DNA of 24,621 nt from a virus: IMG/VR virus record IMGVR_UViG_3300047453_000137, positions 1 to 24,621 of that record; one strand, given 5' to 3'. Positions 19,640-23,585 of the stretch are shown here, piece after piece. A model generated the notes under the pieces. The model did no database searches. It was not told the DNA's origin and saw nothing but the letters and a program-made list of their open reading frames with translations. The translations under genes were made by a program, and so were the position numbers. Numbering within the stretch: position 1 is the first letter of the stretch; each line of letters starts with the position of its first letter.

Positions 19640-21732
19640 GCAGTCTTAAGTTTTTCAGTTCCTTTAACACCTGCTTGTGCCGCTTGTCCTGCTTGTGCAG
19701 TACCCGGTTTTACACCTTTAGCAGTAAGTTGTGCTTTTACTAATTTTCCTAATTCTGGATCAGCTTTAACAGCCTTAAGAATTGCAGTAAATTTAGGATT
19801 TGGTAATCCCATATCAAAACTTGCTTGTACACCAACAGGTTTATTTGTTTCTGTGTCAACCCATAGTGCGCCTGCCCATTCGTAATCTTTACCACCTTTG
19901 TTCATTATAGTACCCTTTTTAATAGGTGCATCTTTAACTGCTGGTGGTGTTTTAGCACTTGGTTGTTCCGAATCCGCACCTTTTTGTGCTGTATCCGTAC
20001 TCGGTGCATCTGGCTGTGTTTCAGGATCTTGTTGGGGCTTAGATGGTTCTAATTCTACTTTTTGTGTTGATCCAATGCTTTGTATTTGGTCGTTACTCAT
20101 ACCAGCATCTGCTAGTATATTAGCAATACTACCTGAATCTAATGGTGATCCCATCTTAGTCCATTGTTTAGTAAGTTTATCAGCAGTAACTTTATTACCT
20201 ACATTTTTTGCAGTTTGTTTAACTGCTCCTGCCGCTGAACTTGCCGCGCCCTTTACTGCGCCTGCGGCTTTACCTGCTAAGTTTCCTGCTCCACGTTTTA
20301 GTTTAGCACCTAGTGTATTAGGATTGTTTAAAGGTAATTCACCTTGTGCAGGATCTGCTTCTGCTAGATATAATTCATACTTTTCTTCCATTGACAATGT
20401 TTCGCCAACTTTACCAAAGTCGCTTAACTTTTGACTTTTGTCAAAGTCTTTATCTACTGGAGTTGCATCGCTTCCGCCTTTGAGATCTAATTCAAGTTGT
20501 TTCTTTTCATCAGGATCAATTGGCTTAATTTTGTGCATTTCTTTGTTTTTGTCATCAACTGTTGCAAGAGCACCTTGTGCCGCCGCGCCTGCCGCGCCGC
20601 CAACTGCTGATACTGCTTGAACTGCTTCTTCAGCATTGTCAAGAACAGCAATAGCCGCATCTAATTGATCGCCTGTCCACACTTCTTTTGGAATGTTTTT
20701 AATTGTATCTGATAGTGCTGATAAATCTGCGTTTGCTTGTTGTGTTGTTGATAAGAATCCGTGTAACTTACCTGCCGCTTCATAATATTCAGGACTAAAT
20801 GTTTCTGCACTAGAAGCCGCACTTGCAAGTGCTTTATATTGTGATACTTGATCAGCAGTCATAGTCATATCATAATTGTAATAGAAACCATTAATATTAC
20901 CTGAAGAACTATAATCCATTGCACCATCTAGTACGCCTGCATCAAATCCGGCATCAGATGCCGCACTGTCTACTGCTGATTTAAAGTTATCTGCCGCAAA
21001 CCCGTCCATCATTGCATCTGCTTCTGCTTCACTACCTGTTGCAATGTTATCAACCATACCGTCAGTTAAGCCTTTAATTGCTAGACCAGCAAGAGCACCA
21101 TATGCCGCTGTTTTAACTGACTTACCAACTGCTGTTGAAAGTTTTTCACCTTGCAATAAATCTTTAGATGCACGTAGTATTAAACCTGCGGCCGCACCGC
21201 CTGCTGGACCACCTGCAAATGCCGCCATAGTAGTTAGAACACCAACTGCTATACTTGCTTTACCTGGATTTTCTTTTGCCCAGTCACTTATTTTTTGTAT
21301 ACCTTGTACAATTTTACTGTCACTGTTGTTTGCTGTAATTTGTTTTTTAAGATCTTCAAACTTTTGATCTGCGTTTTTAACTGGACCAGCATTTTGTGCT
21401 AATCTGCCTAGTTCGTTAATTTTAGCATCAACCTTTTTAGCAATATCAACAGGTAGTTTAGCAACAGCCGCCGCACCTGCACCTACTTTACCTGCAACTG
21501 TTTTATTATCACCGCTGTCCATAGCAACTTGTTCAGCACCGCTAAAGATGTCTAATACTTGTTGCTTAGTAAGTTCTTGTTCTGCTAATTTTGTATACTG
21601 TTCAACTAGTGGCCAAAGTTCTTTTTCCCACTTGCCTAAATAAAGTATTTGTTGTTCAGTTAGGTCTTGATATCCTTCGTTAAGGATAGTTGCTGTACGT
21701 GAATTAAATCCTGTTACTTCTTGTAGTTTCAT
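19636..21732 (-). CDS. Ala/Gly-rich phage protein, 698 aa, probably virion-associated
   Basis: The N-terminus is MKLQEVTGFNSRTATILNEG, then a Trp-rich helix (YLGKWEKELWPLVEQYTK). A hydrophobic Gly/Ala segment follows (~158-190, IAVGVLTTMAAFAGGPAGGA), then a second at ~205-222. The middle is helical, a basic Ala-rich stretch (AGNLAGKAAGAVKGAASSAA) follows, and there is a Pro/Asp-rich linker. The C-terminal YEWAGALWVD block is seen in several marine phage structural proteins. No enzyme motif is recognised. It starts where the next gene ends (ATG overlaps its stop). The composition, with membrane-like helices and low-complexity linkers, would suit an internal or injected virion protein, but that is inference. 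It converges with the gp26 frameshift ORF. Confidence 0.6.
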   Translation of the reverse strand: MKLQEVTGFNSRTATILNEGYQDLTEQQILYLGKWEKELWPLVEQYTKLAEQELTKQQVLDIFSGAEQVAMDSGDNKTVAGKVGAGAAAVAKLPVDIAKKVDAKINELGRLAQNAGPVKNADQKFEDLKKQITANNSDSKIVQGIQKISDWAKENPGKASIAVGVLTTMAAFAGGPAGGAAAGLILRASKDLLQGEKLSTAVGKSVKTAAYGALAGLAIKGLTDGMVDNIATGSEAEADAMMDGFAADNFKSAVDSAASDAGFDAGVLDGAMDYSSSGNINGFYYNYDMTMTADQVSQYKALASAASSAETFSPEYYEAAGKLHGFLSTTQQANADLSALSDTIKNIPKEVWTGDQLDAAIAVLDNAEEAVQAVSAVGGAAGAAAQGALATVDDKNKEMHKIKPIDPDEKKQLELDLKGGSDATPVDKDFDKSQKLSDFGKVGETLSMEEKYELYLAEADPAQGELPLNNPNTLGAKLKRGAGNLAGKAAGAVKGAASSAAGAVKQTAKNVGNKVTADKLTKQWTKMGSPLDSGSIANILADAGMSNDQIQSIGSTQKVELEPSKPQQDPETQPDAPSTDTAQKGADSEQPSAKTPPAVKDAPIKKGTIMNKGGKDYEWAGALWVDTETNKPVGVQASFDMGLPNPKFTAILKAVKADPELGKLVKAQLTAKGVKPGTAQAGQAAQAGVKGTEKLKTA

Positions 21733-22562
21733 TATATTGCTCCAGCCAGTACTTTTTTCTCAGTTGGTGTAAGTGCATCTAGTTGTTTTTGCATTTCAGG
21801 AGTAATACCTGCTCCTGGCTTTTTCATTGGAATAACTTTTGCACCCATTGGCTCACCTGTAGCATCGTCTTTGCCATCTTTGTTTTTGTCAACTTGTGGT
21901 GCTTGTGCTGTAGTAGGTTTTCCTGCTACATTAGTTCCTTTAGCCGCTCCTGCGGCAGGCGCACTAGGTTGTGCCGGTGCTTGGCTAGTTCCTGCTGTAC
22001 CGTCACCGTCTGCTTTTGCGGCATCTTGAGCCGCAGTCATTATTGCTTGATCTATTTGTTTAGGCGTCATTATGCCTTGTACACCTTGAAGGTGCATATT
22101 TGGATAACCTTTTGATTTTAAAAATGCCGCAAGTTGTGGACCTTGCATTTGTTTTATGTTTATACCAGTTTTACCTGCATAACCTTGAAGTGCTACTTTT
22201 AACTGTCTTGCTTCGTCACCTACTTCAGCGGCACCACTTAATTTAGCGGCTGTGCCTTTCATGCCAACTGCACTAGCGGCTTTAGCACCAATTTTACGTC
22301 CTACTTGTTTTAATAGCCCAACAGGTGCTTCGTTTGCTACACTTTCACGTGGTGGATTGTAATGCCAATCGTATGATCCATAGCCTCTATACGATCCTTT
22401 TGTATAACCAGCCATTTCCATAGCATCATCTGTATCGATACCTTTTCCTTCAGCCCATTTCATAATATAGTAAGATCTTTGACTATCACTTACACCTGCA
22501 AATTTTTCCACTACATCTGGATCAGCTTTTGCTTCTGCTATTATAATATCTTGTACACGCAT
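21732..22562 (-). CDS. Conserved phage protein of unknown function, 276 aa
   Basis: ATG 22562 (MRVQDIIIAEAKADPDVVEK) is preferred over the far upstream start at 22643, because a perfect TATAAATA late promoter lies between them and AAGGA precedes 22562. Residues ~25-75 (SDSQRSYYIMKWAEGKGIDT followed by DDAMEMAGY) form a helical block ending in a Tyr/Gly-rich patch (YRGYGSYDWHYNP). The centre is basic and Ala-rich. The last ~80 residues are Ala/Pro/Gly/Lys low complexity, finishing in a short helix (PEMQKQLDALTPTEKKVL). It forms a two-gene unit with the 698-aa protein, whose C-terminal linkers are similar in style. No function recognised. Confidence 0.6.
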   Translation of the reverse strand: MRVQDIIIAEAKADPDVVEKFAGVSDSQRSYYIMKWAEGKGIDTDDAMEMAGYTKGSYRGYGSYDWHYNPPRESVANEAPVGLLKQVGRKIGAKAASAVGMKGTAAKLSGAAEVGDEARQLKVALQGYAGKTGINIKQMQGPQLAAFLKSKGYPNMHLQGVQGIMTPKQIDQAIMTAAQDAAKADGDGTAGTSQAPAQPSAPAAGAAKGTNVAGKPTTAQAPQVDKNKDGKDDATGEPMGAKVIPMKKPGAGITPEMQKQLDALTPTEKKVLAGAI

Positions 22563-22597
22563 TTTCTGAGTTATCCTTAAAGAATGTTTATTAAGTG

Positions 22598-22605
22598 TAT
22601 TTATA
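22598..22605 (-). promoter_or_regulatory. Late promoter core TATAAATA
   Basis: Exact consensus on the minus strand, 35 nt upstream of ATG 22562. It decides against the longer reading of this gene and should drive the 276-aa/698-aa gene pair. Confidence 0.78.
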
Positions 22606-22624
22606 TTATTCGCTACGCGAATAA
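22606..22624. repeat. Inverted repeat TTATTCGC-TAC-GCGAATAA abutting the late promoter
   Basis: A perfect 8-bp inverted repeat with a 3-nt centre directly adjoins the TATAAATA. The related word TTCGCTAACGC follows at ~22629-22639. It could be a protein-binding site next to the promoter or a hairpin at the end of an upstream transcript; there is no T-run for a classic terminator. Confidence 0.5.
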
Positions 22625-22694
22625 AGTTTTCGCTAACGCTCAAACTGTTTACTTCGTATTTAATATTATGCGTGATAGAAGTAATAGATATGAA

Positions 22695-22887
22695 TTAAAG
22701 CAATATTACGATAGTAATATTGTAATTGCTTCATGTAGATTGTTTCAGTCAGACGGAACCTGTTTATGGTTCCATCTAATCTTGGCACTTCATGTGAGTC
22801 CGTCACAGCCGAGACTTGGAAGTAGGTAATTGTTTATACACTTAGTTCAATGGGCTCTGACCTTTCCCAACCTACGTCGACATTATG
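22695..22887 (-). ncRNA. Candidate second structured RNA, ~190 nt
   Basis: Downstream of a sigma70-like promoter, this ORF-free stretch folds into ordered helices. GTAGGT/ACCTAC (22870-22875 with 22822-22827) is stacked on TGGG/CCCA (22866-22869 with 22851-22854). GACGGA/TCCGTC (22799-22804 with 22752-22757) is mutually exclusive with GGAACC/GGTTCC (22768-22773 with 22755-22760). There are also AGATT/AATCT (22778-22782 with 22737-22741) and a perfect 9-bp CAATATTAC-hairpin (22701-22722) near the 3' end. The two overlapping helices could form a switch. No strong terminator is seen; the 3' end is a guess. No known RNA family recognised. Confidence 0.45.
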
Positions 22888-22920
22888 TACATTATAATAT
22901 ACATTATCCAGGATAATGTA
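22881..22920. promoter_or_regulatory. Putative operator: palindrome plus repeated CATTAT half-sites
   Basis: TACATTATCC-A-GGATAATGTA (22900-22920) is a perfect 10-bp-arm inverted repeat. Additional CATTAT half-sites occur at 22881 and 22890 in the same orientation as that at 22902, with the inverted ATAATG at 22913. The array covers -10, spacer and part of -35. Confidence 0.5.
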
Positions 22921-22922
22921 AA
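22894..22922 (-). promoter_or_regulatory. Sigma70-type promoter with palindromic spacer
   Basis: Minus strand TTTACA (22917-22922), 17 nt, TATTAT (22894-22899): one mismatch per box. The 21-bp palindrome at 22900-22920 fills the spacer and reaches into the -35 box, as a repressor operator would. Confidence 0.58.
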
Positions 22923-23135
22923 CTACAGTATACAATATTCCCTCGCTTCGTTCCTAATGCTAAAGGGTTTTTATGAACTGTGTTGTGTTTTTCGACTGCC
23001 AACATTCAATCTATATCAACTAGTGAGCCCAATTTGTTTGGTGGCTTCCACACTCTGGTGTGTCAATCAATATGTACGTGTGCTTCTATACGAGAGCTTT
23101 TTCCACAGCGGTATTTCTAATCCGGCCCGCTAACC
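22923..23135. other. Non-coding stretch upstream of the palindromic promoter
   Basis: No credible gene is seen: the plus-strand 82-codon frame here lacks a ribosome site and has unusual composition for this genome. Visible elements are a CACAC-TCTG-GTGTG hairpin (~23053-23066) and the sequence 22934-22970 whose words (TAGCAT, GGAACG, AAGCGA, AACCCTTTA on the minus strand) also occur, rearranged, at 7221-7250. It follows the stop of the GIY-YIG gene. Confidence 0.4.
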
Positions 23136-23585
23136 TTATGTGTTGGAATGTTTTGCCTGTATGTGTTGTTCTAGCAATGCCTGTTTAAGTTTGTCCGATC
23201 CGCCTACTCTAACATTAATGATACCATTATAGTAGTCATCTGTTTCAAGTACTCGCCTATCAAACTGCTCTCGTGCCTCTATGTAGGACATTTCGCCCCT
23301 ACCTTTACATAGGTATAATATTTCTCTTGTAAACTTGTCTTCGCCTAGTTCTGCAACATCTGCGTTTAGTCTATCACTGGATCCCCAGTAAGTACGCCAA
23401 TCGCTTTCTTTAGTGCCGCGTCTTTTGTTTTTCTTGCCTTTTAGTGGTGGCTTAGTAGTTTTAAATTTTGCTAGTTTTTTGCCTATGTATTTTTGCCCAG
23501 TGGTCGTATTAGTAATGAGATAAACAAAACCTTCGTATTCGTCCGGTATGTTTTCTACCTCTTTGCCTTGATAAGTCCACTTCAT
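23136..23585 (-). CDS. GIY-YIG family endonuclease-like protein, 149 aa
   Basis: GFVYLITNTTTGQKYIGKKL (19-38) contains the two halves of the GIY-YIG nuclease core as VYL and YIG. A basic stretch (KGKKNKRRGTKESDW) and YWGSS follow. Later, YIEAREQFDRRVL holds a candidate catalytic Glu (E103 or E106), and YYNGIINVRVGG completes the domain. The length is that of a single catalytic domain without a DNA-recognition module, as in phage Seg-type enzymes. It lies downstream of the gp46 unit with only weak ribosome-site sequence (AATAAG). It may be a stand-alone homing endonuclease or a phage DNA-processing nuclease; sequence alone does not decide. Confidence 0.75.
   Translation of the reverse strand: MKWTYQGKEVENIPDEYEGFVYLITNTTTGQKYIGKKLAKFKTTKPPLKGKKNKRRGTKESDWRTYWGSSDRLNADVAELGEDKFTREILYLCKGRGEMSYIEAREQFDRRVLETDDYYNGIINVRVGGSDKLKQALLEQHIQAKHSNT

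Follow-up and report, generated by a model that had tools for sequence, protein, structure and literature searches.

Locus and extent of the RNA

The stretch of DNA analysed here (the window), a 24,621-base IMG/VR virus record, is a genome fragment. It comes from an uncultured T4-like phage, with gp20 (portal) and gp23 (capsid) among its genes. Between a segE-like gene and a gene for a 276-aa protein, both on the minus strand, a preliminary description had pointed out a gene-free stretch, which is indeed present and spans 573 nt (22563-23135) if the 276-aa gene is taken to begin at its ATG. Judged from sequence comparisons, this spacer is almost certainly the gene of a structured RNA of ~450 nt that is modular and independent (Table 1). 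The same description had placed a candidate structured RNA at 22695-22887 and had considered an independent small RNA. Structure and independence are both supported, yet that interval covers the 3' half only of an RNA running from ~23141 to 22693 on the minus strand, and the molecule is large rather than small. At its 5' end, the stop codon of the segE-like gene overlaps ACAUAAGG of the 5' domain.

Single-sequence folding could not decide the strand because both strands beat their shuffles: the 193-nt stretch reached -54.0 kcal/mol on the minus strand (z = -3.67, 0 of 200 shuffles as good) and gave a similar fold on the plus strand (z = -3.41). The minus strand was chosen because both neighbouring genes run in this direction and the kept G-U pairs fit it. 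The 276-aa gene has an element of its own, TATAAATA, which resembles a late promoter of the T4 type. Between the RNA and this element, many relatives carry more conserved hairpins (AGTTTGAGCG..CGAAAACTT and others; 22606-22660, minus strand).

Table 1. Features of the RNA locus in the window (strand as in the window; R1 and R2, twin repeats)
Feature	Position	Strand	Basis or remark
Whole structured RNA	22693..23141	-	Conservation, covariation, synteny in >130 loci
Putative transcript ends	5' end near 23141; 3' hairpin finishing near 22700		
Upstream neighbour, segE-like GIY-YIG protein	23136..23585	-	PF19835 E=7e-36, synteny
5' domain, module type 'a' (ACAUAAGG..GCGGGCC..CCGCUGUGG..)	22937..23141	-	BLAST, covariation
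H1, RGCGG 23131-23127 with CCGCU 23111-23107	23107..23131	-	100% of cells paired, mostly invariant
H2, GUG 23106-23104 with CAC 23080-23078	23078..23106	-	UA to AU covariation; encloses H3
H3, hairpin inside H2	23097-23082	-	GC/CG/UA covariation
H4, long-range helix AUAUUGA../..GUUGAUAU	23007..23073	-	98.9% paired; encloses H5
H5, hairpin CACACCAGAGUGUG (relatives: CUACCCAGAGGUAG etc.)	23049..23062	-	Alignment of relatives
H6, hairpin AUUG..CAGU (relatives: GAUAG..CUGUC, GGCUA..UAGUC)	22995..23010	-	
H7, hairpin, internal motif UAGGAACGAAGC conserved	22940..22967	-	
Linker hairpin, length variable	22882..22936	-	Base covaries; GNRA swaps in relatives
3' domain type A (GUCGACGUAGGU..R2)	22720..22881	-	50-sequence alignment
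P1, GUAGGU 22875-22870 with ACCUAC 22827-22822	22822..22875	-	UA/CG/GC covariation, 99.3% paired
P2, hairpin UGGG[AAAGGUCAGAG]CCCA	22851..22869	-	Belongs to core 17-mer GGGAAAGGTCAGAGCCC
Predicted pseudoknot, P2 loop GUCAGA 22861-22856 with UCUGAC 22753-22748	22748..22861	-	99.3% of cells paired
R1, ACATGAAG, CTC ahead at 22798-22796	22788..22795	-	Identity with R2
P5, hairpin GGAACC/GGUUCC	22755..22773	-	50 relatives, with 99.7% of cells paired and C-G to U-A compensation
R2, ACATGAAG, TCT ahead at 22739-22737	22729..22736	-	Identity with R1
3' AT-rich hairpin downstream of R2	22700..22729	-	Most relatives have one, sequence variable
TATAAATA, late-promoter-like element of 276-aa gene	22598..22605	-	-AAATA- kept in most relatives
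Downstream neighbour, 276-aa protein	21732..22562	-	No family match

Structure of the two domains

In the 5' domain, helices H1-H7b are paired in 97.7% of the cells of 39 aligned sequences. Comparative alignment, proposed in the preliminary description as a check for covariation, returned a strong signal here, with 147 compensatory cells as compared with 47 when shuffled and at most 20 when slid, the helix models of both domains having been drawn from the very sequences tested, which gives them an advantage over the slid controls. Compensatory changes in H4 affect four pairs. The linker that follows had been described as a palindromic promoter (22882-22936). It fits an RNA hairpin of variable length instead: its base covaries, relatives have brief GNRA-capped hairpins in its place, the stems of which show compensatory changes (GCUG-GAAA-CAGC, GUUG-GAAA-CAAC, GC-GUAA-GC), and the promoter-like palindrome is missing from five loci (L008, L014, L016, L018, L023).

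The 3' domain was modelled on 50 sequences, in which P1, P2, the pseudoknot and P5 together are paired in 99.1% of the cells, with 9 compensatory cells versus 0.7 in shuffled alignments. P5 is the GGAACC/GGTTCC hairpin of the preliminary description, which is thereby borne out. The second helix named there, GACGGA/TCCGTC, pairs in 57.6% of the cells, with zero compensatory change and no better than slid versions, and amounts to chance complementarity in the window sequence and a few relatives; the switch proposed to operate through these two mutually exclusive helices is left unsupported because GACGGA/TCCGTC is not conserved. A pseudoknot between the P2 loop and its downstream strand is plausible from the alignment, yet lacks proof by covariation because both strands are nearly invariant.

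RNAalifold favoured a partly different fold of the same 50-sequence alignment, with a GUAGG/UCUAC pairing. We prefer P1 because its partner covaries and that of the alternative does not (96% of cells pair, compensatory changes zero). Alternative pairing of GTAGG with either CCTAC (P1) or TCTAC (the lead-in of R2) might possibly constitute another sort of switch. Two other candidate pairings were rejected, namely the closing helix of the minimum free energy fold, GUAGGUUG/CAAUCUAC (96% paired, compensation nil, with P1 GUAGGU/ACCUAC covarying instead), and AGCC/GGCU, of which one side changes without compensation. The AT-rich hairpin at the 3' side could be a terminator or mark the transcript end.

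Distribution, genomic slot and modularity

A search with the 276-aa protein led to 51 loci, ~20 of which carry the spacer at 78-100% identity. At four of them (L019-L022), identity is 92-95% for the spacer but just 53% for the counterpart of the 276-aa protein, and the RNA is also retained at loci where the downstream gene is an altogether different one. The core 17-mer occurs in at least 120 viral stretches. BLAST placed a match to the window's 5' domain ahead of the 3' domain at 120 of the 140 oriented loci, the other 20 mostly having another 5' module or being cut off; these are counts of loci rather than of independent phages, and separate searches may recover one contig twice. Nearly all loci share the order gp46, a small gene, segE and the RNA, followed by variable genes and, on the opposite strand, the baseplate hub. 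The slot from gp46-segE to the baseplate hub is occupied by the RNA, or by a relative with a different core, at over 200 phage loci from metagenomes. Searching by segE revealed a different RNA in the slot at six loci (L244, L247, L251, L256, L262, L271), and elements of classes B and C share it as well (82 loci, 65 with segE, 55 with gp46 and 55 with the hub). A departure from this arrangement is seen in two unrelated phages (L087, L096), where a type A 3' domain lies directly upstream of TerS/TerL-like genes, named as such from sequence alone.

Polynucleobacter-1, a motif of 141 nt, has been on record since 2010 (PMC2864571). It constitutes the 5' module of two relatives in the same slot (L256 2938-3079, E=4e-12; L238 547-687, E=2.4e-13) and is also found in two phage contigs of 84 kb (G011, 4e-24) and 219 kb (G012, 1e-23). 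The window has another 5' module, and its spacer gave no match to Polynucleobacter-1 (RF01718) at the gathering score or at E≤5. The Rfam model ends at 141 nt and excludes the 3' domain and the repeats R1 and R2. Since L256 and L238 carry this motif as their 5' part in the very same slot, the slot appears, as far as sequences can tell, to be a place where 5' and 3' modules are swapped. Polynucleobacter-1 had 0 matches in 79 genomes from the family to which a Polynucleobacter metagenome-assembled genome (MAG) belongs, the control being likewise silent.

In phage isolates, blastn with the RNA sequence retrieved no match. GTDB matches to the core 17-mer were dismissed as chance, save two contigs (L190/L191, 335 and 153 kb) of the Neomarinimicrobiota MAG RS350; both carry the phage segE-RNA-gene locus and are probably phage contigs misplaced in a bacterial bin. 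Sinorhizobium phage Phosso has a 1-kb unannotated gap after gp46 (L272 5920-6800) that is rich in inverted repeats and contains a CCCCGCAACCGGGG hairpin resembling that of class B (GCAAC hairpin). A search of this gap for R1/R2 gave nothing convincing, and we only tentatively regard it as a distant relative in an isolate. Besides, the gp46-hub slot of phage PA5oct contains tiny annotated ORFs and a gap (L273 5780-6963), where a structured RNA may hide. The segE-like GIY-YIG protein is labelled 'NAD synthetase' in many phage records (H5-H24; PHROGs phrog_447), apparently a propagated error.

Twin repeats kept identical

The 3' domain contains two direct repeats of 7-8 nt, R1 and R2, which lie ~58 nt apart (mode 59) and flank a hairpin and a pseudoknot strand. 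Over their first 7 nt, R1 equals R2 in 110 of 111 distinct cores (at most 63 in shuffles), although 11 distinct sequence types of the 7-mer occur among these cores. The repeats are the most strongly covarying columns in the 3' domain, by identity and not by complementarity. On a repeat-masked tree, ~21 changes are required per copy, with one discordant sequence. The lead-ins remain constant (CUC before R1, UCU before R2), and the repeats themselves conform loosely to A/G, N, A, T, A/G, A, A/T/G; their sequence is therefore not wholly free, which suggests an additional protein or structural constraint.

The identity rule extends to class B/C RNAs, retrieved with a search pattern that specified neither R1 nor R2. 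At 63 of 81 sites, the R2 7-mer recurred exactly upstream and at 7 more with 6/7 matches (null: mean 7.5, maximum 16), while the remaining 11 were mostly unrelated GC-rich chance matches. Among 49 distinct accepted class B/C elements, whose acceptance required at least 6/7 repeat identity, R1 and R2 agree at positions 1-6 throughout. Position 7 is mismatched in L116 and also in a small number of class B elements. In L087, the repeats have a very different sequence (ATCATCAAGT), yet match each other.

Across ~530 nt, no column behaves as a base-pairing partner of the repeats; only the other copy covaries. No exact complement of R was found inside the RNA, and the partial phage genomes scanned held no consistent or recurring target in phage DNA. 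The scarcity of complements on the RNA-sense strand probably reflects the purine richness of coding strands. Pairing with anticodon loops and in-frame stop codons were both considered for R and discarded, as exceptions such as ACAGGAA break either rule. To our knowledge, no described RNA family has such an identity rule.

Comparison with known RNAs

Against the Rfam 15 families, the window RNA yielded two matches at E≤5, both at chance level and far under the gathering scores, and the Rfam models of group I and group II introns had no match at this threshold. GOLLD, ROOL and OLE are large ornate noncoding RNAs of bacteria and phages (PMC12286853); the window RNA is likewise large, multi-helix and noncoding, but differs in having no Rfam match to any of the three at E≤5. 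The marine myophages of the Melnitz type encode a two-piece tmRNA along with a glutamine riboswitch (PMC9004378). The window RNA shares with this tmRNA its large size, its structured character and its occurrence in aquatic T4-like phages, but ARAGORN detected no tmRNA in the window or in the contigs of eight relatives. We know of neither the identity rule of twin repeats nor the gp46-segE-hub slot for GOLLD, ROOL or OLE. Elsewhere in the window, a glutamine riboswitch (RF01739; 7231-7277, minus strand) and, ~400 nt from it, a freshwater-2 RNA (RF02980; 6729-6815, minus strand) score above their gathering thresholds. A description of the window RNA was not found in the open-access literature, and the RNA class has apparently not been described before.

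What the twin repeats may do

Taken as a whole, the best explanation is an independent RNA whose twin repeats share one complementary sequence, preferably in an R-loop or primer, a reading to which we assign a probability of roughly 0.45. Drift with retained identity is most simply explained if a single complementary sequence is the pairing partner of R1 and R2 alike, and the chances that the twin arms would indeed read one shared sequence appear to us about even. As the partner is absent from the RNA and none recurs in phage contigs, a strand copied from the RNA's own locus is the most economical candidate.

In plasmid ColE1, RNA II is a long structured primer, part of which presumably anneals to template DNA where an identical segment is encoded. 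The phage RNA resembles it in that R1, being equal to R2, is an RNA segment identical to the one at the hybrid site, if R2 is assumed to be this site; the resemblance is not one of homology, and a primer role of the phage RNA is hypothetical. By this analogy, R1 of the RNA would anneal at R2 to the template strand of the DNA and form an R-loop, from which the RNA might prime phage replication or recombination-dependent replication. This step to an R-loop or primer at the RNA's own locus, which rests on exclusion and analogy, is rather unlikely when taken by itself. In three contigs, the turning point of the GC skew is not at the RNA but lies upstream, at a distance of 4.6 to 6 kb, which is compatible with a nearby origin, with gene orientation as a confounder. 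The near-constant spacing of 58 nt, however, counts against a ColE1-like hybrid because such a hybrid does not require it. More broadly, and tentatively, the RNA may represent a self-identity class, with matching segments of which one uses the complementary strand of the other, for instance to prime replication; this strand could conceivably be template DNA, an antisense RNA or cDNA.

A shared target in trans would also fit identity combined with drift. The scanned genomes being incomplete, it could possibly belong to the host or to stretches of phage DNA that have yet to be sequenced. In that case, R1 and R2 may be identical seeds of a twin-arm antisense RNA, directed against a host RNA or a phage RNA outside the contigs and reminiscent of small RNAs with several seeds; the target would differ among hosts with both seeds tracking it, and the conserved scaffold would hold both arms at a fixed spacing. 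We regard this as a possibility of modest weight, as the repeats differ even between close phages (the window versus L007, with 95% identical 276-aa proteins, and also L010), outpacing the likely change of a host target, and no recurring complement was found in the phage contigs.

It is less probable that the repeats are two RNA sites of a dimeric phage protein whose preference co-evolves with them. The loose pattern, the fixed spacing and the invariant CUC/UCU lead-ins would suit such a protein, but ~21 independent paired changes in one class and an exact identity, as opposed to a shared degenerate motif, speak against it. Even less credit is due to the idea that the repeats act in DNA, as a site of recombination, resolution or packaging, with the RNA as a separate function of the locus. 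Crossover regions of tyrosine recombinases comprise 6-8 bp and need identical overlap sequences, so a variable yet identical 7-8-bp sequence resembles them, and the RNA directly upstream of TerS/TerL-like genes in L087/L096 would fit as well. However, no inverted arm repeats were noted around R1/R2, a spacing of 58 bp is short for excision, and in two RNA classes the repeats keep a regular position with respect to the helices of the RNA.

Finally, the suggestion of the preliminary description that the RNA is a leader regulating the 276-aa gene in cis (a riboswitch) is very improbable: the RNA does lie upstream of this gene on the same strand, and Polynucleobacter-1 was flagged as possibly cis-regulatory (Weinberg et al. 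2010, PMC2864571), but the gene downstream varies and carries its own late-promoter-like element, and the GACGGA/TCCGTC switch helix is not conserved, so that neither a stable tie to the 276-aa gene nor conserved alternative helices were found.

Implications

In summary, uncultured aquatic phages gain an RNA class that is large, abundant and strongly supported, with hundreds of T4-like sequences, and the orphan motif Polynucleobacter-1 becomes one interchangeable module of a larger phage RNA. That R1 and R2 are identical is an unusual hallmark, which probably reflects how this RNA works, and it makes the function of the RNA open to test.
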